Shown: piece after piece, positions 17,998 through 64,000 of the stretch
Numbering within the stretch: position 1 is the stretch's first letter
How the letters are laid out: every line of letters begins with the position of its first letter
Assembly (NCBI GenBank): GCA_950295325.1
Contig: OX485806.1
Coordinates: 11,596,001-11,660,000 of the forward strand
Source: Polytrichum commune
Taxonomy: Eukaryota > Streptophyta > Polytrichopsida > Polytrichales > Polytrichaceae
Direction: 5' to 3'
Length of the DNA: 64,000 nt
Translations under genes and position numbers: made by a program
The notes under the pieces: generated by a model
What the model was told of the DNA's origin: nothing
The model's database searches: none
The model's input: the letters and a program-made list of their open reading frames with translations, nothing else

Positions 17998-18316
17998 AAG
18001 GACAAACTCACCCAAATGTAGATGGGATTTGATGGGGGTAGGGTTCGTACTTGCCAACTAGCTACTCTCATATTCTCAAATTTGGGCCCACCTACTAAAA
18101 CCGGTCTTCAATCCTTTGGTGACTCAACACTTGTAAAAGAGATGCTTTAGTGGGTGCATGGAAGTCTAGCGGCCCGTGTCCACGGCCCTTCACATTCTAG
18201 TAGGTCACCAACATGTGGTTGGTTGACAGCTTGGTTCTCATCTACATGAGAACACATCCAACACACTATTATGTAGAATCTAATGTGTGAGCGGTCTACA
18301 TGGAAACAAACCCTAA

Positions 18317-28730: not shown

Positions 28731-29327
28731 AATCAGTGCAAGAAGCTCCAAGAGCGAGTCGTCGTTTGCAACAACAAAAATTCAATCTGCTTGTCTTTGT
28801 GATCTTACAATCAGGGACGGAAAAGAGAGTCAGAGATCAGCTTGTGTTAATCTTTTCAGAGTTCTGAGACTTGGAGGGGGTGTTTCATCTCCAGTTTCCT
28901 CTTGGAAGTAGTAAGGTGGTTGTTCATGTGATACATATCAACATAGCTTGAGTCAATCTTTTGAGAGTTGTAGAGCTGGCTGCAGGGTTAAGTTGGTGAA
29001 TCTTCAGTTTCCTTCTGAGCTGCAGGGTCTTGGAGAGCCGAGTTTTGCAAGATATCTAAGTTGTTCATGTGATACAGCATCAGAGGGAGGGAGAGCGAGA
29101 GAGAGTGTATCAGTTTCTTCAGAGTGGGTGGTCGGTATTAGGGTCACAAATTTACACATGTGCATGTGATTTAAACATTTCATCTCCTATTTTGATCTTC
29201 CTTCTGTAGCTTCGATCTGTGGTTTTTGGTAGGCTCTTGGTTTTCATCAGAAAGTTGCTGTATCTGCTTCTTCTGTAGTTGGAATTCCTATTTCTGAGGG
29301 AAGGGTTAAGAATCTATTGAATTCACC

Positions 29328-29963
29328 ATGGCAATGCCGATGCACGAGTTTTTCTACGGTGGATGGGAGCCTGCCTACAGTTCGCCTGCTTCATCAGGCT
29401 ACGAGAATTTATATTCTTCGGAAAGCACACAAGCATGGCCGTCAGTGTATGGCACCCGGAGAACCTCAATTCCCACTTTCGAGTTGATGGTGCCCATGTG
29501 TTGTGCCACATGTGAGGAGCAGATCCAGGAAGCTCTTTTGGACTTGGAAGGAGTCTGTGATGTGGTGACCGACCCATACAACCAAAGAGTGATGGTCACA
29601 GGTTACGAGCATCCGAAGAGAGCTTTGAAGCAAGCACGGAGGGTGAACAAGAATGCAACCCTATGGTCAGAGGTAGCCTCCACACCATCATACCGAGTTG
29701 AGGAAGTGCACCGCCATCAGTATGTCGATTCGGAGAAAACCTCGTACCATCGGAGGTACAATCAGAGCAGTGGGGACAGCCGAATCTCTAACCGAACTTT
29801 TGTGCAAGAATCACCAGTTCCAACCCGAGCCACTTCAGCGTCAAGAATTAGCGAAGGCTCATCATATTCGGCCAGTTATTGCCCGAGTTACCGAGACTCG
29901 ACCTCCGTGCAATTCGTGGTACCGAACCCTGATGCGAATGTGGAGCGTGTGGAGTTCAATTAG
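29328..29963 (+). CDS. HMA-domain protein, cysteine motif intact (HMA1)
   Basis: A 211-residue protein in a single exon. The N-terminus (MAMPMHEFFYGG) is followed by a Ser/Tyr-rich stretch and a heavy-metal-associated-like domain at about residues 51-115. The MCCATC motif supplies Cys58, Cys59 and Cys62, and the domain then runs through LDLEGVCDVV and RVMVTGY to KQARRVNKNATLW. HMA domains use CxxC to bind soft metal ions such as copper, or serve as protein-interaction modules. The C-terminus is low-complexity and ends in VVPNPDANVERVEFN, a tail motif shared with HMA3 and HMA4. I chose the ATG at 29,328 because the same MxMxxEFFYG start is found in HMA2. There is no isoprenylation CaaX end, so it is not a typical HIPP. 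The real metal or partner is unknown. Confidence 0.85.
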   Translation: MAMPMHEFFYGGWEPAYSSPASSGYENLYSSESTQAWPSVYGTRRTSIPTFELMVPMCCATCEEQIQEALLDLEGVCDVVTDPYNQRVMVTGYEHPKRALKQARRVNKNATLWSEVASTPSYRVEEVHRHQYVDSEKTSYHRRYNQSSGDSRISNRTFVQESPVPTRATSASRISEGSSYSASYCPSYRDSTSVQFVVPNPDANVERVEFN

Positions 29964-48434: not shown

Positions 48435-49245
48435 GAATGTGGACCAAGAGGAATGACCATGCGGCAAGAAGTGGATGTGCTGATTTTTTTAATATAAGCC
48501 CAAAAAGGGCAGTTTTGGGAAAAAATGAAGTTTGACCATTTTGTTGACTTCAATTTGCCTTCACTTGCCTACACATGCCTTCACTTATCTTGTCACTTAG
48601 TTCTTTCTTCTTTTCGCCTTAAAGTTTGATCATTCTCTTGTCATCTCTTGGGCTTCAACTGTCTTCACTTCTTGTTAAATGTGTCGAAGATGTGGCTTGC
48701 AAATCTTCTCACAACAATTTTTACAAAAAAAAAATGAGCGATTCAATTTGTACATGTTCAATGTAATTTACATGTGACGTGTACCTTGTGTTGTCACTAC
48801 ACTAAATAGAACACTATATTAAACATTTCGGGACTTTGGCGTCAATATGGGACTTCTGGAGTGTCCATTGAGATCGCATTGGGAACGCATTGGGAACACA
48901 TTGGGAACAAATCCTATGTTGTGTAGCAGTGACCCCTAATGGACTCCCAGTTGATTGCAACACTACTTTGACCGGTTCAAATGAGTGGGTGAGTGGAGGC
49001 TACAGCCTTGTACTCGAAAGAAAAGAATTGGTAACCCATACACCAAGTTTGTAGAACAATTACTGTTTGAATTGAGATCTTTATTCCTGAAGCATATGTC
49101 GAATGCCTCATTCTTAGGCGTCTACATACATGTTTGGCTATATATATGTCCCCACCGATATGTGGCTAAAGGGGACGCATTATCAACTATAGTATTTAAT
49201 ACATGTTGTGGCTTCTACAGGTCGCTCAATTGTAGTCCTGCCTCG
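48435..49245. other. No gene; downstream flank of gene C
   Basis: AT-rich. Contains CCTTCACTTGCCTACACATG-type short repeats near 48,550 and a fragment of the TAGTGTCA-type sequence near 48,795. Confidence 0.4.
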
Positions 49246-50045
49246 TCAAGCGATACGATTATTTCCACGGTCACCCAATCCAGCCCGCAAAAGTCGAACT
49301 GCCCTTGAATTAGGGCCTTGAGATTCGATGAGTGAAATTTGGTAGTCCCGTGTAGCAGCGGGGTGCACGATGGCCAAAGTTCCGCATGGAGGTGTTGAAG
49401 CATCTGCGAGGGTGCACATACTGGTGTCAACGCCCTCCACATGGTTAATGGTGGAAGGGAGCTTCGTCATGGCGGGTTGAGGGGCATAAGTCTTCCCAAG
49501 TGATGCCAATCCAGCACGTAGAAGACGAACACCTCTTGAGTCAGGGCCTTGCGATTCGATTAGCGCAATTTGGTACTCGCGGGTAGGGGTGGGGCGCATA
49601 ATGGATAATGTATGGGCGGGTTGTGGTCCGTCATCCATTGGGGGGAGCATATTTAGGTCAACATCCTGCAGGCCGACATAGGCAAAAAACATTCTCCAAC
49701 TTATTGCCCCACAAATACCACCAACATTCATATACATGCACATACATTCCACGCCAAATGTTGGAGATTAGATAGAGATTGAAAAGGAGATTTGCAAAAT
49801 ATTTATTTGGGTAAGAACATTCCCAGGTGAACAAAATGAGCTATATTTACCAGACTCTGTCCTTCAGGGGTTGCTTCAGTGAGGGGTGACACACTTTGAG
49901 AGTTAGCGACCCGGATAGCTTCTACGCCCACGTGGGCGAGTGAGAAGGGATGGCAGGCCAGTACTACGTTGTGTTCATGCCGCGGGGTGAGACACACGAA
50001 TGCCGATCGCTTGGAAGTGGATGGTGTGTATCCAGCAGGAGGAAA
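49246..50045 (-). CDS. Gene C: two exons with a duplicated LIESQG-SR-VRLLRAGL module, function unknown
   Basis: Exon 1 is 50,045-49,851 (65 codons) after the acceptor TTTGTTCAG. Exon 2 is 49,665-49,246 (139 codons plus stop) after GCCTGCAG. The donor is CTG|GTAAATA and the intron (185 nt) is phase 0. Exon 2 holds two similar modules, TREYQIALIESQGPDSRG then VRLLRAGL, and TRDYQISLIESQGPNSRA then VRLLRAGL, about 80 residues apart. I do not recognise this family. No initiating exon is visible: exon 1 lies only about 85 bp below the gene B stop, in the same direction. It may be the 3' part of gene B, cut off by the TAG at 50,129-50,131, or a separate partial gene. Confidence 0.5.
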
Positions 50046-50128
50046 CTGAACAAAGCATATAATACACAATGTTACATGCCATACAATTCATGAACCTTAC
50101 ATGCCCTAACCTAAACCCTACATGCTAA

Positions 50129-52734
50129 CTATCTTGGGACAGCAGTTATAGGGTGCAAGTCGGGTCGATTGGAGTGCTTGTTGGCCATCATAAGTGACTC
50201 CCTGACTGGATCGTTATGCGGGACCGGCTGTTGCCCAAATCTATGTGTGATCACAAAATCGCGTACGTCGCTCATTGTCGAATTGAACATACGTTGGAAG
50301 TAGGGGAGAAGAACTGCTCTCATATCCGCAGTTGCCTGTTTGTTGGTGGTGAAGGAATCGGGAAACAATACATTCCCGGGAGGATTACAAGCACCTTTGT
50401 AGGGGCTGTCATCCACAAGAACAGTGTTCTCAATAGTGGCAGTAACACGTCCGGAATCAAGAGATACAGGCGGCCACCAAAATGTTTTGTTTAAACTCTT
50501 GAAGAACAATATTGATTCTGGCTTTAGGGGGTTCCTGATCTCATTGTCCCAGATGTCTTTGAATGTGATGCAATCCTCCTGGCCAAGAACTATTGCAGGT
50601 CTTGACATCCCATTGAATAAAAACTCCACCACGAGGTCCACAGTGGACTTTTTCATAGATGACCATATGCAAACATAGAACATTTGGGTCATTCTCTCCC
50701 AAAAGTGCTTGTAACCCAGTCTAGGTAGGACAGCTTTGGGACCGACAATCGCCGGACCCTTGTCTGGCGCACGATCTTGCACCATCCATGTGGGTAAAGC
50801 GGAACGGCCGCGAGGAATACAATGACAAAATATGCCATTCAAATCGAACACCAGAATGAACCTTCGGTCGGGTACAGCAGCTAGCGCCTGGCGACAGGAA
50901 TCCACTGTCAACTTCTCCTGCTTTACTCGAATTACATATAATGTTGCAACTAATGAAAATTGTGGAACTTCATATATTCAATAACTTACATTCATATATT
51001 CATTAACTTACATTCATATATGCAATAGGTGCATATATTGATATGGGGGTTTATAATGAACTAAATATTAAAAGTTATTATGAACTGGGAAACCAATACC
51101 TCGAAAGTTATGGGATTGAATTCCCAGCGATCCGATGGTCCTACTGAAGGGTCTTGAGGGTCCCTAGAAATAAGTCTTTTAGCACACGCTATTCCCATCT
51201 CCCTCGTGAAAACTTGAGAGATGTTCCTATCGTACGTTGGGTAGTTGTCAGCGTAAACAAAAAGTTTATCATAAACAACGTGTGGGTTGAAGGGCGCATC
51301 CACAGTCGTTTGCGCACTTTGTCCACCCTGAACCCAAAACTACGCGGAGATGAATGTTTGGGACACAAATAAACCGGGTATATTGAAAAGAAAATCCAGT
51401 GGACCAAGTGAAATTTTATTGAGAAGGGGAAACGAAGCTTACACAAACTAAGTGCCATGAGAAGGGGAAACGAAGCTTACACAAACTAAGTGCCATGAGA
51501 AGGGGAAACGATGCTTACACAAACTGGGAGAGCTGGCCGCACACGCGCTCTGGGCAAGTGACCTCGGAACGGCTGGCGTGCATAGCCCGCCAAGCCTCAA
51601 ATGGACGTTCGGCTATTTTTGTATTGTCAGGGGGAAAGTCGGGGAACCTGTCGTCGCGTGGCCAACGTTCCACGACTTTCTTGACATGATGTGGGCCGGC
51701 AGAAGATGAAGGCTCTGTTGGATCGACGACAGCGGGCTCCGTTGCATCAACGATAGCATGCTCCTCACAATGTGGAGCCTCGGGTTGGCAAGGGCCTGCA
51801 GAAGAGGAAGGCTCCGTTGGCTCCACGGTAGCAGTACAGTAACAAGGTGGTGATATTGGTTGTTGCAGGCCTGCAGATGATGACCCGGGCTCTGAATGTT
51901 CGATGACAGCCTGCTTCAGAGCAAGAGGTTTGATGGCAGCAATGTGGACCGCTGTGGGTGAAGGCGACTTGACCACATCATCGTCACTACCTATGGGCAA
52001 GAGGGGTGAACGATCCCCTTTGTCCAAAGGGGTGACGACAAGCTTTGGAATTCGACATGTAGTGGCAATGGGGGCTTGCATGGGGCCAACTATAAGTGAG
52101 GTGTCCTCTTCGGCTGCACCCGTTTGCGGGACTGCTGCACATGGTGATTCTGGCCGTGTGAAATCAACGATTTGCAAACCAGCCTGTGAATTGAACATGC
52201 ATTGTTAATGACAGCCATTGCAGACAATGTATAGACGAAACACATTTCATTGAATGTAAAATGTACATCTTCCAAATACCCAGTACATGGTGAGTTTGGC
52301 TACAACTAAAATGTCCTAAAGGTTTTTAAGTCCAATGCTCTAGTCAGCCTTGGATTGCGATCTACAAACGGCTTCCTATTCTCCAAGTGGTTTGATTATG
52401 ATGCGCGGCCTCCAACCTGGATCAAACATCCCGGCGGAGATTCAGTGACTAGCATGTTTAAAAACAATTGGAAAAGCGAGAATAGGTCAAGGATATTTAC
52501 CTCATCTTCAACAAGCTGGGAATCATGTGAAGGCCCCTCCAGGCATCCGGCATCTGTAGGTGAACTTTCCACTTCGTTCTTCTCGGCCGATTTCTCAGCA
52601 ACCTCCGGTTGATCCACATGAGCTGGCTTTACTTGAGGAAGGACATCTTGGGAAGGTGTGAGCCCAAAAGGGTGCCCACATTTAGTCTTAGACCCTTGAA
52701 ACGTTAGTTGATGCACTTTGAAGTAGCATGTTAC
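50129..52734 (-). CDS. Gene B: FCP1/NIF-like phosphatase-domain protein
   Basis: Exons inferred from splice sites are B1 (5' end uncertain, at most 52,734)-52,501, B2 52,183-51,521, B3 51,327-51,100 and B4 50,917-50,129. Intron phases are all 0 and intron lengths are 317, 193 and 182 nt. B1-B2 encode a Pro/Ser/Glu-rich, probably disordered region with repeated EPSSSAGP. B4 carries the HAD-type FCP1/SCP-like domain: FILVFDLNGIF (motif I), YVCIWSSMKKSTVD (motif II, Ser), a lysine region LKPESILFFKSLNKTFW, and NTVLVDDSPYKGACNP (motif IV with DD). Family members remove phosphate from Ser/Thr, classically on RNA polymerase II tails. Here motif I is DLN rather than DxD, which removes the usual general acid and questions catalysis. 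No initiating ATG could be fixed. Confidence 0.7.
51421..51530 (-). repeat. 38-bp tandem repeat that triplicates the exon B2 splice donor
   Basis: Three units of period 38 start at 51,421, 51,459 and 51,497. Each contains, on the minus strand, AGTTTGTGTAAGC(T/A)TCG, which holds the donor inferred for the end of exon B2. The outermost copy (51,497-) is joined to coding sequence (CTCTCCCAGTTT|GTGTAAGC). The two inner copies sit in the intron as spare donors. Confidence 0.8.
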
Positions 52735-53880
52735 TTCACAAAAATATGAAAAGAGTGAAATGTTAGTCTTAGAAGTACCATGTTGTAAGAGGCTAGGATG
52801 TGAGTTGTTATTGTGTTTTTACCTTCGGAAGGATTTGAATGAATGAGGATAGGTAAGGAGAACTTGGATTGAGTAGTTAGTGAGTAGGCTAGTACAAATG
52901 GATGGAGACAACCAAAGTGACTCAAGAGGCAAGTGCATTCGAATTGGAATGAATGGAGGATCACATGGAGCGCACAAGTGGACCACCTCATCATGGCCAC
53001 TTAATGGGGAAGGCCCAAGGAAGAATGCAAGGTGGAGGATAAGCAAATTCTCAAAGCACCAATCAAATCACGAGTTAAGCATCGTGGTTTGAATTAAGTG
53101 GTGAGCGACGATTTGGGAAAGTAAGGGGAGAAAGTTATGGCGGCGGAAAGCGAAGGAGGCTAAGTTTGGGTTGAAGCATCCCAAGTTTGGTAAAGTGTGG
53201 TAGGTAGAAAGCCAAGGCTAGTTAAATGTTCGAATTAGGATCCTTGTTAATCATTTGAGGGAGGAAGGCTTAGAAGATAGGATTGGCGCCTACTAAGTAG
53301 GAGGAAATCTCAAGGGCTTATCGTGAGCCTTGAGGGTGCTCACCCCCTCAAGCTTACTATATAATCCCTCATTCTTCCCTCACTCATCCTCTCTTTCCTT
53401 TGTGCTCCAAGGCACCCCACGAGTTATAAGTGTGGGTGTGGGAAGCCATATTGGAGCACATGTGTGTGCTTAGTTTTTAGTTTGAGAGCCAAGGCTTGTT
53501 AGCCTTGAAGAGGGCTTGACCTCTTGGTAGAATTAGTGTTGACGTGAAGGATTTTAAAGTTAATTCATGATTCCAATTTGTGGTACTTAAAGTTCATGTT
53601 TTGAATACACGTGGTTGCAAGTTCCATGTTTAAGAGTTGAGCACTTGATGTTGTGATGAGTGCAAAAATATACTTGTGTGGATTAGTTAGTCTTAGTGAA
53701 GTTAGGAAATTCTCTCTCCCCCTCTCCTCTCTAGGATTTTAGGATTTTAGGATTAGAGAAGAATTGTGTGATTAGAAAGGGGTTGTTAGTAGAATTAGGG
53801 AAATTAGGTAGGAAGATTAGTTAAGGGCTTGAATAATTAGTGAGGTAGTTGGGGATTACAACTACAAAGTTGTGGGTTTA
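52735..53880. other. Interval between genes A and B
   Basis: No confident exon. It may hold the first exon and promoter of gene B. A repeated AGGATTTT tract occurs at 53,732-53,755. Confidence 0.35.
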
Positions 53881-54380
53881 TGAAGGAGCTGGGTTTATGA
53901 AGGAGCTGGGTTTATGAAGGAGCTGGGTTTGTTTAGTTAGAAGCTAAGAAGCTGGGTTCATGAAGGAGCTGGGTTTATGAAGGAGCTGGGTTTGTTTAGT
54001 TAGAAAGTAAAGAGCTGGGTTTATGAAGGACCTGGGTTTGTTTAGTTAGAAGCTAAGGAGCTGGGTTCATGAAGGAGCTGGGTTTATGAAGGAGCTGGGT
54101 TTGTTTAGTTAGAAAGTAAAGAGCTGGGTTTATGAAGGACCTGGGTTTGTTTAGTTAGAAGCTAAGGAGCTGGGTTTATGAAGGAGCTGGGTTTATGAAG
54201 GAGCTGGGTTTGTTTAGTTAGAAGCTAAGAAGCTGGGTTCATGAAGGAGCTGGGTTTATGAAGGAGCTGGGTTTGTTTAGTTAGAAGCTAAGAAGCTGGG
54301 TTTATGAAGGAGCTGGGTTTATGAAGGAGCTAGGTTTATGTAATTAGAAAGTAAAGAGATGGGTTCATGAAGGAGCTTAG
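53881..54380. repeat. Minisatellite of GGAGCTGGGTTTATGAA units with higher-order structure
   Basis: A 17-bp unit GGAGCTGGGTTTATGAA alternates with a longer unit GGAGCTGGGTTTGTTTAG then TTAGAAGCTAAGA. These form a higher-order repeat of roughly 60-115 bp that recurs through about 500 bp. It lies just past the 3' end of gene A. No open frame crosses it. Confidence 0.9.
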
Positions 54381-54644
54381 TAGATAGCCTACCTAATTAG
54401 CTCATAGACAAGTAGTTAGTTACATTATGCTAGTTAGTGTTATGTGTGGCTTTCACAAGTAAATGTATTTGAGATTGACTATAGAGAATAGTGTTTTTTT
54501 TAACACTTGCATCCTCTCTTTAAAAATAAACCACGTGCACAACTTAATGGAGAATGTGGAGCACTCTCGCGATGGCAAGACAAAGGAAGCAAAGACCAAA
54601 GTTAAATCCAAGACCACTTGAAGGGTGAACCTTGCACTATGGAC

Positions 54645-57600
54645 TCATCCAAGTCCAAATCCAATACCGCGGAGGAATGTGAGCCCAAACCCACTACTCG
54701 GACTACGGACGCTTAAGGGTGGGGGGTTTGGCCTCACAGAAGGGTCAGTACCAATGGGGACAAAAACAACCTCCGCATTTGCTGGTACAGTGGCCGGAGT
54801 AGGAATTGGCGTGGGCACGACTTGAGAGGGTGGCATGGCCTGGGCCATGGCATCCTTGAACAAGGTCGTTAGCAAGCCTGGTAAATTTTTATTCAAAATG
54901 CCCATCATGAGAGGTTCCAAAACAGCCGTCGTAAGTGGGGGCTCCACGGGCTTACCATGGCGGCGTTTATGCCTATCCTTAGTTGAGGACCGACTTCGTG
55001 AGCGAGAGGACTTCCTATGTGGAATGTCCATGGCACCACTAGGACCAACATCGGCAGTACTGGGTCTGAGGGGACTCTGTGGAATGTCCATGGACCCACT
55101 AGGACCAACATCGGCAGTACTGGGTCTGAGGGGACTATGTGGAATGTCCATGGACCCACTAGCACCAACTTCGGCGGTATTGGGTCTCTGTGGACTACGT
55201 GCAGCAGGCTGTGGAGGTTGGTAGGTGTCGGGAATAGAACGAGGGGACTCCAAAACCACATCGACATCTTCGACCTCCTCTTCGACATCCTGGGCCTCTT
55301 GGATATCCTGATCCTCCTCAAGGGCATCCTGATCCTCTTCTTCGACATCCTGGTCCTCATCTTGGTGTTCTTCATCCTCCTGGTCCTCATCCTCCTGGTC
55401 TTCATCGTCAGCTGGGTCTTGGTCATCGCGGTCTTCGTCATCGAAGTCAAGTTGCTTCGCTCGTAGCGGCGAAGCACCGAGATCGCAGGCAGTCGACATA
55501 TGCTCTTCCAACGGAGTCAAACCGCCAGGGGCATCATCGTCCGAGTGATGGGACGTGTGGGGGGATTCGCCATGGCTCTCGACGTCGGTATCCCGTTCAC
55601 TTGGAGGCTCCACAGACTCGTCATCTTCATCGTCAGGAAGATCTTCCATATCGGAGGGGTTTCGGTCAATGTCCATGGCCTCGATCAGTTCGCGATCTTC
55701 GACATCCTCCTGTGTAGCAACCATACAATGTCAACTATCATCTCATATAAAGGGGAAGTGAGAAAACGATGATTTTCATAAACACAAGAAAGTAATTCAT
55801 TAGCAATACTTACCAAAAGCAAGGGTGGATCTGGGTTGAGGTCAGGGTGAATGTGGCCATCGTGGGCTTGGTACTCATCTTCATCTTCGGCTTGTTCAGC
55901 GAAATCCTTCAGCTTAAGTACGCGAACACGTTGAATCAACGCGTCCAGAATATGCAAGAATGCCGAATCCATGTAGGAAAAGACGTTGTAATCGTGCATC
56001 TGGAAAATCAATGAGGTTAGATAAATGGAAGAGGGAAGAGGTGAAAGGGAACGAATTGAGATAGTTCAGATAGGTAGAACTCACCAACGCTGCAGCAACT
56101 GGTTTCAAGCCCCCAAATAGATTGAGAACCATGCCTCCGGCGGAACCCATGTACTCCAAGAACTTAATATAGACCTCCATTCTGAGCTCCCCTCGATTCA
56201 CTTCATATGTTAACTCAGACCAATCCTTGGGTTTTACTTTGTGTCGGCGCGAATCCGGGGCTAGCATTGGACATGCAATTACCTTCCACCTGGGAAATTT
56301 ATCTGGGACAATGAGGTGGTCGATGTAGAGGGCAGGGGTTTGCCTCTTTCCAACTATTTCTTTGGGGTCGGCTATCTCCTCTGCAGGACAAGGGAAATAG
56401 AACGACGGGACGATCACAAACGTGTTGGGATGTCTGCGCATAAGCGACGACATGAATACGAGCGAGGCATCATGGCTACGCAAGTCGGAGATAATCATCC
56501 AAGTTGGAACAGATTTCACCCCTGGTGTCCATTCCGGAGAGCACAAGTATTTAACCAAGGACTCCACAACTTCAGGAGGGATTGGTTCATCTACACATCC
56601 AGGGATGAACCTGAAGTCCAGAAACCCCGCGGCAATGGTGCTTCCCTCAATCCACTCAACATCACTGGAATCTTGTTTGGGAATCACCAATCGTTTCTTA
56701 ATGGCATTATGTGACACCCACCGCGTGATCACTTGCCCTGTGCATTCGTTGAAATCTGTTTGCAGCCAGTCGCGAAGCAATCGGTCTAAAGCCGGTTGTA
56801 CCGGTAAGGACTTGTTGTTAGTCGCCCTCTTCCTGTTCAACCCCTCTGAAGTCGCAACCTGGTAGAACTTTACCCATTTCGGCTTTGTAACTCCATGCTC
56901 CCGTTTGAATTTTGTCCATACGTCGCGATCCAGGAACCCATTCCCCTCATCATCCTTCTTCCACAAGCCAACTTTATTGGAATCCCGCTTATCCAACTCC
57001 TGCAGCAAGATATTCTTCCACTTGCGGAAATTGCACCATGACTTCAGTGTCACGACATTGCTGTTCTTGCAAGGCCTGAGAGTGACACTAGGAACGTCGT
57101 CCTCTCCCCTCCCTTCTAAAAGCCGTCTCGCTGCCAGGTGAAAGTCTGGCTTTGTGAGTCCTGACATACTCTTGAATGTCTCCCTTGTAAGGGGTTTAGT
57201 CACGAAAGGTTTCTCCACGAAGGGTGTTCCTGCCTTGGACTTCTCGTGGCGAGCTCGCAATTTTTGTTGAGCCTCCACATGATCCTCCAGGTATGTGCGT
57301 CCTGGCTTGTCCGGGTTGATAAATAAGCCCTTCTCGTGCGACATGAACACTTTCTTCCACAATCTTGATGTTTCCTCAGGGGCCATAATTAACGTGAGTT
57401 CCGCTTTAAGATCGTTATGCGTGATCCCTCTTGCGATTGCGGTGAATGATGCCTCCATGCTGGTAGTAAAGTTCTGCACATCATGGATATAGGATACATT
57501 GGTTTAGGATACAATGGTTTACAATGCCTGCATGATCAACACTTTAGGTGCGCCTCACCACTTTCACTCGATCGAGTGAAAGTGGTGTGAGGCCATGTCA

Positions 57601-59187
57601 ACACTTTAGGTGCGCCTCACCACTTTCACTCGATCGAGTGAAAGTGGTGTGAGGCCATGTCAACACTTTAGGTGCGCCTCACCACTTTCACTCGATCGAG
57701 TGAAAGTGGTGTGAGGTCATGTCAACACTTGAGGTCTGATGAATTAAGGGAGCAGAGTAACATACCTTCCAAGCCAATGTTTTCTCAGGGTCCTGTGTAG
57801 CCTCAGAGGCGTTCGCACGCTGCTTTTCGGGCTTGTTCAACTTCACCCAAACCCTGCGACAATACAGAATTTGTGTAGTCCATGTCGGTGTGAACTTGTT
57901 GAACGAGTTCGAATTGTTCAATGTATATGAAAGCCTGACGGTCATGCTCGGATCCTCTGTCCACACAATTGTGCAGGGCCACACCTTTAACTTCTCCTTG
58001 AGCTTCGGATCGGTATCTCGATGAGCAATTATTTCCGTAGATGCGGCTACAGTATGTTGCCCATTGATTATGGCGAATTGCATGTTCTTGATGTCATCCC
58101 ATGTCATGCCTTCTCGCCATGTCTCACCTTTCTTGAACTTCGGCATCAAACACAGATTGTGCTGAGGCCAAGCAGGCGGGGTTTGGATAAGGTAGTTCTT
58201 CATGAGGTTCACCCCACTTGGATCCAAAGGCCGCGTAACTTGATAAGCTTTTGCGCCCTTCATTTGTTTGATGGGTACACGGAATATCGATTCTGCGCCG
58301 AATGGATAAATGTGCCCAAAAAGTTGCAAAAACTTCTTCCTATCCAGAGCAGCTTCCTCAAGGCTGGGTTGTTGACCTTGCGATATAACTCGACCCTTCT
58401 CCGCTTGAGTCAAGACCAGTGGGGTTTCCTCATGCATAACAACGTCGGGCTTCATTTTCTTTTGCTTTGATTTCTTCTCGGGTGACAAAGCCCTCTTTGC
58501 TTTCTTTTTCCTTCCACTCCCGGCATCCCCAGCATCCCTCTCCGTGTTCTGAGAATCTGTAGAAACGTGGGGCACCACCTCGTGAGGCTTCCTTCTCTCC
58601 GTCTCCAGTGATGCGGTTAGCTCTTCAGGTTTTTTCCCCTTCTTTGCCTTCGGCTGTTGTCCAATAGAGCTGCCACCTTCATCGGCCTTGGATTTCAGTA
58701 TAACCTCGGCTTGCTTCTTCTTTTGCTGCCTTGATTCTTCCCGTGTAGCTGCCTCTCTACTGTTGATGTCTTCCAGTGTCTCCAACACAAAGTTTATGGC
58801 TCTTTTGGATATTCCAGATGACATCACCTTCTCTATCTCTTCCTTCTCCTTCGAAGGGAATGAGGCCATGGACTCATAAAATGGCACCAAGAGAAATGTA
58901 TGCTTCTTGCAATCAATTGATAAAATTCTCTCTTCCACCCCCTCCATAACCGAAACCTCTAGCCTGTCCCTCGCTCCCACATGAGCGATGGTAATTGGAT
59001 TTCCAGGGTTCGGAATCCAACTATTGTTTACCTTGTACGTAAATATAAGCTCGTACCCTGAAGATTTGTTTCTCTTGTTAATGGCCAGCGACCACGTCTG
59101 CAAATGAGAGTCTCTAATTACCCATTGAGCAGTTGGTCCTGTTTGTTTGACTCCAACTATATCTGTCCAGAAAACAACTTTGTCCAT
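54645..59187 (-). CDS. Gene A: ParB/DGQHR-like plus degenerate DNA-methyltransferase-like protein
   Basis: Four exons are inferred: 59,187-57,766, 57,473-56,085, 55,999-55,814 and 55,709-54,645. They join without frame change (all phase 0) into 1,353 residues. The start ATG lies 5 nt after an acceptor (TTGCAG), so a leader intron is likely. Residues 1-110 are an unassigned globular region and 130-265 a Lys-rich coil. Residues 300-390 look ParB/Srx- or DGQHR-like (VTRPLDPSGVNLM...P then FAIINGQHTVAAST, 371-384). Residues 798-960 resemble a beta-class N4/N6 methyltransferase: a motif-IV-like strand WMIISDLRS, then HKVKP near 885, then VLNLFGGLKPVAAAL (923-937) running over the exon 2/3 joint into YNVFSYMDS. 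DPPY and the second motif I glycine are missing, so it is probably not an active enzyme. Exon 4 is very acidic, has three 20-residue repeats, then a basic SR/KR patch like a nuclear signal. Exon model strong, fold calls moderate. Confidence 0.7.
55021..55200 (-). repeat. 60-bp in-frame tandem repeat in gene A exon 4
   Basis: Three units start at 55,021, 55,081 and 55,141, each GGAATGTCCATGG.. on the plus strand. They encode a 20-residue repeat with SMDIP, SPLRPSTA and VGPSG. The period is a multiple of three, so the frame is kept. The next block upstream is a run of Asp/Glu codons (about 55,265-55,460). Confidence 0.9.
57474..57765 (-). other. Intron 1 of gene A carrying the palindrome array
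   Basis: 292 nt, donor AAG|GTATGT at 57,765 and acceptor ATGATGTGCAG at 57,474. Two thirds of it is the palindrome array. Removing it joins LAWK to NFTTSMEASF in frame. Confidence 0.75.
57535..57730. repeat. Palindrome array 1: three 62-bp units, perfect palindrome in each
   Basis: Each unit reads TCAACACTTTAGGTGCGCCT, then CACCA, then a palindrome with core TTTCACTCGATCGAGTGAAA, then TGGTGTGAGG. The 26-bp symmetric core sits at 57,559-57,584, 57,621-57,646 and 57,683-57,708. Perfect symmetry extends to 32 bp (57,556-57,587 in the first copy), then continues with a 2-base offset (GCCTCA...TGAGGC). Units are nearly identical. Candidate roles are a protein-binding operator, an RNA hairpin in the pre-mRNA, or a cruciform-prone repeat. 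Confidence 0.95.
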
Positions 59188-59200
59188 GCCTCCTGCAATG
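59188..59200 (-). promoter_or_regulatory. Splice acceptor just upstream of the gene A start codon
   Basis: On the minus strand CATACCATTGCAG is followed by GAGGC and then ATG at 59,187. The five exon bases before ATG would give a non-zero phase if coding, unlike all other introns here, which favours a non-coding leader exon further upstream. Confidence 0.5.
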
Positions 59201-59254
59201 GTATGTGAAATAAGTTAATCTTCAAGCCACATTAATGCATCACTCAACTCAACA

Positions 59255-59668
59255 TTAATGCTTTCACTCGATCGAGTGAAAGTGAGCCATGGTTGTCCAT
59301 GGCACAAGCAGGCAGTCAGCACGCGAGCGCTGGTCCACTTTCACTCGATCGAGTGAAAGTGGACCGTGGCCAGCCATGGCTCTCAGGCAGCCAGCACGCC
59401 AGCGCTGGGCCACTTTCACTCGATCGAGTGAAAGTGGCCAGTGGCCAGCCATGGCTCTCAGGCAGCCAGCACGCCAGCGCTGGGCCACTTTCACTCGATC
59501 GAGTGAAAGTGGCCAGTGGCCAGCCATGGCTCAGGCAGCCAGCACGCCAGCGCTGGGCCACTTTCACTCGATCGAGTGAAAGTGGCCAGTGGCCAGCCAT
59601 GGCTCAGGCAGCCAGCACGCCAACGCTGGGCCACTTTCACTCGATCGAGTGAAAGTGGCCCAGCGCCT
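59255..59668. repeat. Palindrome array 2: six copies, 73-77-bp period, upstream of gene A
   Basis: The same palindromic core as array 1 (22-bp symmetric unit) is at 59,261-59,282, 59,338-59,359, 59,413-59,434, 59,488-59,509, 59,561-59,582 and 59,634-59,655. Spacers contain CCATGGCTC(TC)AGGCAGCCAGCACGCCAGCGCTGGG-type text, itself with GCCAGTGGCCAGCC. Perfect symmetry reaches 34 bp in copy 2 (GGTCC...GGACC) and 42 bp in copy 6 (59,624-59,665, CGCTGGGCC...GGCCCAGCG). The array ends about 65 bp above the acceptor and probably lies in a leader intron or the promoter of gene A. Confidence 0.95.
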
Positions 59669-60730
59669 CCAACCCTGAAGAGTGTCCGTACAGTCAGGTG
59701 TGAACGGGGATATTTCCCACCACTATATCTTGAAATATACTTCTTATTTCTATGTCTTTGACATTCAATGCAAGCCGGGAAGTGTACCTGATGTGTGAAG
59801 AGTATGGATGTATATTTGCTACTCAGTCTCTGCTTGCACGACCTTCACTTGGAATCAACAATAAGAGCAGGAGTGGGGATTTTACATAAGTTCTGATTAC
59901 TGTAGAAACCAATACCATGTCTTGCTACATGGATCAAGATGGAGGTTATTTAATATTGTGTACAGGAATATGGCTAATCTGAATGCTTATGCTGCAAGGA
60001 TTCAGGGGCCTGGATTGAAAAAGAAAAACCAGAATGTGATTAGGTTCCAGTTGTAAATACCTCAAAAAGTGAGCATATCGAAGGAAAATTCAAGATGCCG
60101 ATTGCACTGAACAAATTTAGGATGCTGGGGGTGAAGATTTCAATGAAGCATAGCAAACAAACAATGTGGAACACGAAAATTGACTTAATACACTTGGAGG
60201 CTCCAGGTGCATACTCTTTAGAAATCAAGAGTATCAGGGTGAACATCCCGAATCCATGGAGATGGAACAAACAAAAGAAGATTTCTTAATAAGAATTCAG
60301 GGTGCCTAATGTATAGAAAAACGTCAAGCAAAATGCATTCAATGAAATAAACATAACCAGGATGCTCTTTGTGATATACTGAGTGGATCCCAGGTGTGGA
60401 TGGCACTTCAGGAGGGTGGAGGAATGTGCGAAAAGGGAGATATGATGCAGATTGTGAATTGAAAAAAGGAAGATGCAGATTGTTGAGCAATGTGCATACT
60501 AGAGGCAGAGCTCAACCACATTGGAGTGAACCAGGTGCATACTACAAGATATCAACCAGATTTCAATGAAACAAGGTGCATACTAGAAGAGATCAACCGG
60601 ATGGCAGTGAAGCAAGGTGCAAGGTGCATACTAGATCAGCAATTTCAATGAAGCAAGGAGCATAGACGAAGGCAAATGCATAATACACTTGGAGCCGGGT
60701 GCGGAGAGGGAGAGGGTGCACAATATTGCA
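59669..60730. repeat. Degenerate repeats of CAGGTGCATAC / ATTTCAATGAAGCA
   Basis: Short blocks AATTTCAATGAAGCA, AGGTGCATACTAGA, GAGATCAACC and ACACTTGGAGGC recur irregularly from about 60,030 to 60,720. Frames on both strands are by-products of the repeats. The stretch may be part of the gene A leader region. Confidence 0.5.
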
Positions 60731-60960
60731 ACGGAAGAACCAAGAGGAGAAAACACTAGGATCGAAGAGGAGAAAACACAATGAAAGTGTTGAGCGGGGG
60801 AGGTCATTCTGGACCCAAGATTGGGAACGGCCACGTCCCTTCGCCCAAGTGCCGATGGTCAGGATTGTGCCGTCAATAATGGACGGCCCAGATCCTAGAC
60901 GCCGGACCATGATGGGCGGACGAGTAGGCTAGGGTGTAGTTTCACCCGTTCTCATTAAGG
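60690..60960 (-). promoter_or_regulatory. Possible promoter and leader of gene A
   Basis: Read on the minus strand the segment is C/T-rich with CCTCTCCCTCTCCGCACC and GTTTTCTCCTCTTC stretches typical of plant leaders. It is preceded by a GGGCCGTCC element and a GGCCGTC...GACGGC hairpin near 60,875. This is a guess from composition only. Confidence 0.25.
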
Positions 60961-60969
60961 AGGGTGTGG

Positions 60970-62068
60970 GTTAGTAGGAAGGGTACTTCCTACTAACTGT
61001 AGAGGGTATTGATTGCAAACTGTATGATGTTAGTTGGTGCTTTCACTTATGATTCACTTAACTTACCAAATGAGCTTTCGTCCAAATGGCTTGATTCCAT
61101 CACAATGGTTCAATTTAGATATGATACGGCCACCGCCACCGCTTGGCTGGTACATAAACCGAAACCCCTATATTTGAATGGTATGGGGTTCAGTGAGGAT
61201 CAAAGAGCAAACATCAAGAAGACACGTTTAAAAGAGTGTACTATGTATTGAAACGTTGATAATCTCTACTCTCAAAAACGATTCAGTTGAATGGACCTAT
61301 ATATATGCAGCTCAAAAATTATACATATACACATACATATTCATATACATATATATTTCACCACATGTAAGAAGGTACTACACCGTTTATGATGTTTAGT
61401 GTCAAGTGCACAATTTGCGAAGGGCCTAAACTAGATGCCGGCGGGGTCTCAAAGTGTCAAGGCTAGCCTACTAATTGCCCATATGATACAATTCATCAAC
61501 ATAAGTAACATGTTTAAGCAAAAATATTAATTGAAAAATCTACATTATGACAGTGAGAGTAGCACATTGGAATACTTTGGACGACAATTTAGCGCTCCCT
61601 TGTAGTCCAAATATTTCTTTTCTGAGCAATTTTGTCTTGAAATCATCATCAAAACCTTGAGTTTAATTTCCGAGTGAAAAATAAGGTGGGGTGATCAAAC
61701 CTAAAAAGTTTAATTTGTTTACTAGGCCCTGCATTCAATAAGTATTGTTACATTGTTTATGGTGTTTAGTGTCAGGGAATAAATTTGAAGGGTTGCTTGT
61801 ATTTCATAAGGAAGGGTAACTTAAAATTTTCCCTTTCAAAATGAAGGGTTAGCTCAAAAATTGCCCTTCATGTATGTATTGAAATTTTTGTTCAAAGTGC
61901 ACATTATCATGTTTATCATTTAAGCGATGTTCAATACTATTATAATATAAGTGAGACCAAACTTAAAGAACACACATGGTGAAAAGATAGAATAATAATT
62001 TCAATAATGAAACATTGATGTTTGAGTATATTGAAACGGTACTGACATTTCAACATATTGGTACAGTC
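60970..62068. other. No gene; family D copy at 61,135-61,285
   Basis: Carries a family D fragment (TATTTGAATGGTATGGGGTT ... GACACGTTTAAAAGAG) and AT-rich text with GTTTATGATGTTTAGTGTCA at 61,384 and 61,756. No open frame of interest. Confidence 0.4.
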
Positions 62069-63872
62069 TAACCTTGATAATATCACAGCATCCGTTTCAC
62101 CATAAAGTGTGATATAAGCATTGAAGGTGTCATATTTGATAATGTCACATTCTGAAGATTTGTGCATAATGTGATATTATCAAAAAAAATAGGTAGACAA
62201 TCAAAATAAAATTTCAATGTAAAAAAAGAAAATAACAAATACAAGACTTCAATGTTTTTACATGTAAACTCTAATTCAAAATTGTGAATAACAGCAAGAG
62301 CACATCATAATCTGTCATTGAGACCAGGTAAAGACCTCTCACTAGAGACAAAGGAGCTTCTAATGTCACATTGTTTTAGTGATGTTTATTGTCCAACACC
62401 AATTCTAATGAGTTTGTTATGGATTTTTTCCATTCCTAACAACTCCTGGGTGTTGAAAATCTGAAAACCTTGGCTAACCATAAAATTCAAAACATCTTTA
62501 GCATATTTTTGTGCATGATCGCTTAGCTATACTACTTTAGACTCGTCATCACAGTGACTGCTATCAACAATCAATGGGTCTTCTTCCATGGAATCACTAG
62601 CTTCCAATGTAGCAACAACAACAAAAACAACAACACAACGAATAACACCTGCACTGCAAACCAATTGAACTAATTTAGCTTAAGTCGACACTTACTCTGT
62701 ACCTAGACCAGCTCACCTAACCGTAGAACTTAACTAACATCCCAAATTACTTCACACAAGCCGAAACCCTCATAGACACATATTAGGTGAACACATGTGA
62801 CGGAAGGTGGGATGCATATTAGAGGCCGAGAAGTCTTGCAGACCTTGGACAACTAACCAACTAATTCAACTATCAGTTAACTAGTTGCCTTTCGTAACTA
62901 TAGTTGTTTGTGATTTGACCTGCCAAAAAATGTAGTTAACTATAGTTGTTTTGATTTTGGTATGCCAAAAAATCTAGTTAACTATAGTTATATCTAGTTA
63001 ACTAAAGTTGGGCACAACCTGTAGTGTAGTACCATGACAGATCATAGCATCTATATATTTTCCTTCTCTTTTATTCAAAATTTAAATTTGGGACTTGATT
63101 CCAGTTGTGATCCGCACTCAATCAACACCCAATGAGCATCATGATGATGACTTCATTATGTCTAAGTTACTTAGAGTATAATGGGTTCTAGTCCTTCTTG
63201 GGATGGGCCTTCATGGGTGACAAACATAAGGTCTATTATAGAAGTTATGTAATATACGTTAATTCAAAAATGAAATAACTTGTTGGTTGACTCCTTACAT
63301 TTTTTGGAACTCTCAAGTTGTAGTTGGTTGAATTTTTTTCTAGTTAACTATAGTTGTTTTTTAATATGGTCTTAAATATTTCTAGTTAACTATAGTTGTT
63401 CTTCAAATTGGTTTGAAAATTTCCTAGTTAACTATAGTTGTTTTCTAATGTCTTGAAAAAACTCTAGTTAACTCTAGTTATTTTGGCAGTTGTTTAAGGT
63501 CTGAAGTCTTGACAGTGCCGTCCCATACAACACCTTTGAGTGCCGTGTATAGACAACACCGTTCAAAGTTGGTGCACATGGGCGGCTCATGACCATGTGA
63601 ATAGCATTGCATTATCACAGGGGGCGGCTCATGACCCTTTTGGCTATTACAATCTGTCCATCCAACCATCACATACAATCCATCCATAATTGATATTATA
63701 ACGTTCACACTACGGATTTTGGAGTATTTTGGAGTATTTTGGATGTATTTTGGATTTTGGATAGTGGCATTGTCTAGGATGATAGGGATAATAACAAGGG
63801 AGTTTTACACTAAGAAAATCGGTTTCAAACTTTAAGGTGTTCTATTACCAAGGGTGACATTATCAAGGTTAA
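62069..63872. mobile_element. Possible pogo/mariner-like element bounded by AACCTTGATAAT repeats
   Basis: AACCTTGATAATATCACA near 62,071 and, in reverse complement, AACCTTGATAATGTCACC near 63,853-63,871 are inverted. The left flank CAGTCTAACCTTGATAATA resembles the CAGTAGAACCTC-type ends of plant pogo-like elements. Additional TGTGATATTATC copies lie inside at 62,168. No transposase or secure TA duplication was found. Confidence 0.35.
62890..63480 (+). repeat. Two clusters of CTAGTTAACTATAGTTGTTT
   Basis: About eight copies in one orientation fall in two groups, 62,896-63,010 and 63,340-63,480, with spacing near 40 bp within the second group (about 63,340, 63,381, 63,424, 63,463). The unit contains GTTAAC and AACTATAGTT, both self-complementary. 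The ~330-bp gap between the groups has none. Confidence 0.75.
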
Positions 63873-64000
63873 TAGAATGTATCAATGATAATCTCGAGGA
63901 CAACAAGAAAGCAGTAGTAGAAAGATGTAAGAAATTCACAATCTAAATCACTCTTGAAATCTTCTATCCTTCACGGACATTTATAGAGGGACCGGTGGCC

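Follow-up and report, generated by a model that had tools for sequence, protein, structure and literature searches.

What would a protein that joins a ParB-like motif to a degenerate DNA methyltransferase-like region do in a plant genome? The question is raised by a minus-strand gene of the moss Polytrichum commune, which lies in a stretch of 64,000 nucleotides (hereafter the window; G000:C4:11596001-11660000 of a 408-Mb genome) and which a first-pass annotation, made from the letters alone, had taken for an ordinary plant gene. This was not borne out, as the gene sits in a multi-copy DNA transposon with terminal inverted repeats (TIRs) and target site duplications (TSDs). The answer proposed here concerns that transposon, the altered domains of the predicted protein and the palindromes that surround its first exon.

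An accessory gene of a multi-copy DNA transposon

A DNA transposon of ~22.5 kb, multi-copy and mobile until recently, carries the gene as an accessory, its copies being bounded by TIRs and 4-bp TSDs. Comparison of copies places the window copy, which measures 24,362 bp, between position 48,810 of the window and G000:C4:11669171, 9.2 kb past the window end, with 48810-64000 as the portion within the window. The left TIR, AACACTATATTAAACATTTCGGGACTTT (48810-48837, plus strand), is preceded by the TSD ATAG (48806-48809), the right end of the element is the reverse complement of AACACTATATTAAACATTTCGGGACTTT, and the second ATAG follows C4:11669171, outside the window. The TIRs are 28 bp long with 0 or 1 mismatch. 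The search for TSDs took in 13 of the 17 copies, two of which gave one end only, and identical 4-bp flanks stand on both sides in all 11 copies with both ends read (ATAG, TATG, TTTG, TCAT, TAAT, TAAT, ATAC, TTTA, ATAA, CAAC and ATGT).

A genome search with exon-2 DNA, in which 40 of 65 candidates were scored, found at least 17 copies, the window's included, at 96–100% identity across the full 1,554 bp, as well as older places at 65–78% identity, many of them partial. Six large contigs, C1 to C6, bear copies. Element lengths range from 22,227 to 27,021 bp; the unit is ~22.5 kb in four of the five further copies compared and 27 kb in the fifth, C3b (G000:C3:34852603-34879623), a 27,021-bp variant whose exon 2 is 96% alike and whose middle part is different. 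Many places at 66–69% identity match just positions 1–614 or 1–995 of the exon-2 query and perhaps represent a related, differently built element family.

An integrity check of the exons covered the copies C6, C3, C2, C5, C3b, L006 and L008, with L007 left out, and exons 1–3 are free of stops in C6, C3, C2 and C5 and in the read part of L006. Near the right end of the C3 copy, two overlapping open reading frames (ORFs) lie on the strand opposite the accessory gene, and the second of these (L016:4589-6697) matches DUF7869 (E 4.9e-40). Both ORFs are also stop-free in C6, C2 and C5, as are the matching ORFs in C3b. In the window copy, the transposase region falls beyond the window end. The DUF7869 protein is the best candidate for the transposase and probably is that enzyme, and since the element around it has TIRs and 4-bp TSDs, DUF7869 may be a transposase domain of Sola-like elements. 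A domain that had carried no name is thus tied to an element of this type.

The predicted protein and its altered motifs

As the first-pass annotation had modelled it, the gene consists of four minus-strand exons that join into one frame of 1,353 residues across three introns, all of them phase-0 GT-AG. Exon 1 (57766-59187; 474 amino acids) encodes an N-terminal domain (58678-59187; residues 1-170) of PH-like topology by a weak match, a basic linker and the ParB-like region (57766-58335; residues 285-474). Exon 2 (56085-57473; 463 amino acids) encodes a helical region plus the bulk of the methyltransferase-like region, the end of which falls in exon 3 (55814-55999; 62 amino acids). A first search of predicted proteins gave 4 homologues, and the alignments used as queries then listed 33 matches for exons 2–3 and 31 for exon 1; alignment A3 holds 25 of the former and A4 22 of the latter, the remainder, mostly shorter pieces, having been excluded by hand. 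The exon joints are supported because relatives cross or respect them: P0001 and P0003 are intronless across the exon 2/3 joint, P0002 retains an in-frame intron there, and the matches of P0004 and P0035 extend as far as the exon-1 donor site.

The modelled C-terminus fared differently. Exon 4 as first drawn (54645-55709) ends in DNA of a nested insertion of 2,082 bp (52657-54738), which has TG..CA ends and a 5-bp TSD (GAAGG), looks like a non-autonomous element of long terminal repeat type and is found in the window copy alone among the six compared. The last ~30 residues (54645-54738) are therefore supplied by the insertion, are absent from the five other copies, and were rejected as a native end; in the C3 copy exon 4 continues and would give a frame of ~1,407 residues provided that no further intron follows. 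The insertion itself holds a tandem-repeat array at 53883-54377.

The motif INGQHTVAA (58042-58068; residues 374-382) had been placed where ParB or related proteins carry their GQHR-type motif, and profile alignment agrees with that placement: the GHQR of phage proteins aligns with GQHT of the window, at the position of ParB Box II (GxxR), with the arginine replaced. In the window and in each of the 20 homologues where this stretch could be located, the sequence is GQH[ST], so that the GxxR arginine is represented by serine or threonine. That arginine is reported to be needed for nucleoside triphosphate binding, and its replacement abolished binding in the ParB-like proteins tested (PMC12704722). 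The profile comparison drew on 17 of the 23 A4 rows, 14 ParB proteins (4 of them picked from 71 YbdM-like loci) and six of seven phage fusions, a split gene being left out; its hhalign score was 28.4, and none of 400 column shuffles scored as high.

The methyltransferase-like region, whose range was transferred by alignment from the model of P0001, comprises 56085-56744 (approximately residues 718-937) in exon 2 and 55886-55999 in exon 3. In the predicted fold the order is that of a permuted Rossmann domain, with the motif IV strand before the motif X helix and the motif I strand. This medium-confidence fold and the order of the motifs (VLNLFGG starts at residue 923, YNVFSYMDS at residue 941) support a permuted amino-methyltransferase-like domain. 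WMIISDLR (56478-56501) takes the place of motif IV (DPPY) in degenerate form, and VLNLFGGLKPVAAAL (56085-56129) that of motif I, altered and conserved. The absence of DPPY and the altered glycine loop, both remarked on in the annotation, extend across the relatives: among 64 homologues, many of them partial, the catalytic (D/N/S)PP(Y/F/W) is present in none of the 29 where the stretch was found (one carries DPQN), and the FxGxGT loop that would bind S-adenosylmethionine is replaced by FGGLKP in all 28 FGG matches and in the window. An H-x-x-K-P element that had been noted before motif I was rejected as a motif, its histidine being confined to the window's row among 26 aligned rows.

Both domains thus appear from their sequences to lack a catalytic signature and to be conserved in altered form, and the uniformity of the alteration across relatives argues for a retained non-catalytic role and not for decay. 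The missing DPPY and altered glycine loop likewise make binding likelier than catalysis, as the annotation had supposed. The ratio of nonsynonymous to synonymous substitution rates (dN/dS) between exon 2 and its counterpart in an old copy from this genome is 0.13, with dS at ~1.76, near saturation, and with stops in the old copy, so that part of the divergence was free of constraint.

Palindromes around exon 1 and the readings they allow

The window holds nine perfect copies of the palindrome TTTCACTCGATCGAGTGAAA, of which three lie in intron 1 (57562-57705; starts 57562, 57624 and 57686) and six upstream of exon 1 (59262-59654; starts 59262, 59339, 59414, 59489, 59562 and 59635), and 100 shuffles gave none even at 3 mismatches. 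The palindrome is absent from 82,866 bp of flanks and from the window's own left flank of 48,809 bp. Four young elements carry 13–17 palindromes each, including a third cluster before the transposase ORFs. We also compared four old relatives, chosen from the older places by match length, whose matched pieces share 47–77% protein identity with the window. These contain 20 instances of the core CTCGATCGAG, of which 12 precede the start codon and 8 lie in intron 1, with none in an exon. All 12 upstream sites are perfect palindromes of 20–108 bp, in each of the four relatives. When the upstream and intron-1 regions are aligned with the window, the core aligns at 1.6e-05 or better, and no core-free alignment falls below E 0.06. 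The arms change symmetrically (TTTCAC/GTGAAA in the young versions, TTCCAC/GTGGAA in the old), which means that the symmetry itself has been kept. Clusters frame exon 1 in all five elements, i.e., the window copy and the four distant relatives. The conserved palindromes with CTCGATCGAG at their centre, upstream of the coding sequence and within intron 1, are a feature newly described here, and they are good candidates for binding sites of the protein. The half-site TTTCAC/GTGAAA occurs in bacterial parS as well. Two very long perfect palindromes surround the same core, one of 94 bp (L016, about 3194, element position 18216 of the C3 copy) and one of 108 bp (L134:1237).

We give roughly an even chance to the view that the protein is an element-specific, sequence-specific DNA binder that acts as a regulator or anti-silencer without methylating DNA. 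It would recognise the palindromes of its own element (centre CACTCGATCGAGTG), for which the candidate sites are those before its start codon, in intron 1 and, in young copies, upstream of the transposase gene. From these sites it would set the expression of its own gene and of the transposase gene, and would shield or cluster the element much as VANC proteins counter silencing, again without methylation. Protein and site may belong together because the protein is ParB-derived and the palindromic arrays frame its own first exon; that the protein binds DNA, that the sites are its own and not the transposase's, and that silencing is countered are all things that we infer. The more specific picture of a parS-like transposon system, in which palindrome arrays and a ParB-derived protein whose methyltransferase domain is dead together serve self-recognition (autoregulation, anti-silencing or copy clustering), is held tentatively, at somewhat under an even chance.

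A number of results weigh against a binder of this kind. The palindromes may be sites for the transposase or for some other factor; the flanks contain two other palindromes of at least 20 bp without the core; and the intron-1 sites are perfect (18–26 bp) in three of the four old relatives, the four sites of L134 keeping a 10-bp symmetry. The ParB-like call is carried by a score above all 400 shuffles and not by hhalign's own probability, just 15.8% over 40 aligned columns, and the predicted model has a predicted local distance difference test score under 50 almost throughout from residue 171, the ParB-like region included. Similarly, the claim of a degenerate methyltransferase is supported by the permuted predicted fold and not by the profile comparison with phage methyltransferases, which puts motif I in register but is equalled by 129 of 400 shuffles. 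Foldseek gave no match in the Protein Data Bank (PDB) at E <= 0.001, its matches include Alba and RNase P proteins alongside methyltransferases, and the sole viral match at E <= 0.001 is an unrelated capsid protein. Not all young copies are intact, with one stop in exon 2 of L008 and eight in exon 1 of C3b (aligned frame), and the window copy has the truncating insertion in exon 4. Its exon 2 also differs from that of the C3 copy by 7 nonsynonymous and 0 synonymous changes, and this copy may be evolving without constraint. One of the seven changes hits a nearly invariant tryptophan.

Among the alternatives, the one that survives best, though we consider it unlikely, is that the DUF7869 transposase or some host factor binds at the palindromes, or that these act as hairpins or replication sites, and that the ParB/methyltransferase-like protein has another job. 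Internal transposase-binding repeats are common in transposons, one cluster precedes the transposase ORFs in young copies, and the 94- and 108-bp palindromes could fold into hairpins. However, the palindromes are not subterminal, being located at 6.6–9.0 and 17.8–18.4 kb of ~22.5 kb in four young copies, and two of the three clusters lie on either side of the ParB-like gene's first exon in all five elements.

It is rather improbable that the domain calls are wrong and that a transposon protein of its own kind, related neither to ParB nor to methyltransferases, is at hand. Sequence searches of Pfam (ParB included), NCBIfam, PHROG and PDB gave no credible match, and the methyltransferase profile is not significant; the ParB profile score, the predicted methyltransferase fold with its strand order, and the independent report of a ParB/methyltransferase accessory protein in a Sola1 element, as described there (PMC12477816), speak for the calls.

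Still less credit goes to a working N6/N4 DNA methyltransferase whose marks would fall on its own element, for which the palindromes, with GATC at their centre, would be the methylation sites. Such an enzyme would agree with the predicted fold, with symmetric sites that contain adenines, and with an architecture and gene layout like those given for the Ectocarpus accessory protein (PMC12477816), but DPPY is missing throughout (29 of 29), FGGLKP replaces the FxGxGT loop (28 of 28), and the comparison with phage enzymes is not significant. A host gene, duplicated by chance or domesticated, was rejected and has next to no standing, since despite a long, intron-containing frame under strong constraint the copies have TIRs and 4-bp TSDs on six contigs and the old ones are damaged.

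Two further ORFs were recorded in the window. One within the element (50129-50977, minus strand), found in the C3 copy too, matches the NIF/FCP1-like phosphatase domain PF03031 (E 7.7e-10), with DLNG as its first motif; in active NIF/FCP1-type phosphatases this motif is DxDx(T/V). The other, outside the element (29310-29963, plus strand), has a heavy-metal-associated domain (PF00403, E 1.5e-07).

Comparison with known systems

The kind of protein is already known from the ParB/methyltransferase accessory protein of an Ectocarpus Sola1 transposon. Sola1-1_Ec32 (21.5 kb) encodes, opposite its transposase, a protein of 1,104 amino acids with ParB-like and N4/N6-methyltransferase domains, and the proteins of this type in algal transposons were suggested to bind and mark their own element (PMC12477816). 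Both domains in one long protein, the strand opposite the transposase and a giant DNA transposon are shared with the moss element. The methyltransferase, compared by description, is predicted to be active in the alga, whereas the moss relatives lack DPPY and the GxxR arginine; and the moss has a palindrome array, of which that description makes no mention (PMC12477816). The moss family is therefore a version with catalytic motifs that are lost yet conserved in altered form, and with a concrete candidate target site, which makes the suggestion of self-binding directly testable and separates binding from methylation. Sola transposons in general have TIRs and 4-bp TSDs, can exceed 15 kb and have been reported in Physcomitrella (PMC10741241). 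The moss element fits this description in its TSDs (11 of 11 copies), 28-bp TIRs and size, its probable transposase being matched to DUF7869 only.

Phage fusions of a ParB-CTPase with an N6_N4 methyltransferase have the same order, ParB-like first and a permuted methyltransferase second, and their GHQR aligns with GQHT (PMC12704722). In contrast, the six full fusions measure 405–422 amino acids, which leaves the moss transposon protein ~3 times longer, with additional N-terminal and helical regions, neither the Box II arginine nor DPPY, and a eukaryotic transposon as host. Retrotransposons that carry cytosine DNA methyltransferases or Dam-like adenine methylases likewise place a gene of DNA methyltransferase type on a eukaryotic mobile element, but these are retroelements with other methyltransferase classes (PMC5890265).

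If our reading is true, it would connect the ParB biology of prokaryotes with the struggle of plant transposons against silencing. The closest functional analogy is with the VANC anti-silencing proteins of Arabidopsis transposons, whose targets are often tandem repeats (PMC5735166). A transposon-encoded protein with tandemly repeated target sites is demonstrated for VANC and proposed for the moss, where the sites, unlike those of VANC, are palindromic; the likeness is one of function by analogy, with anti-silencing in the moss as its conjectural part (PMC5735166).

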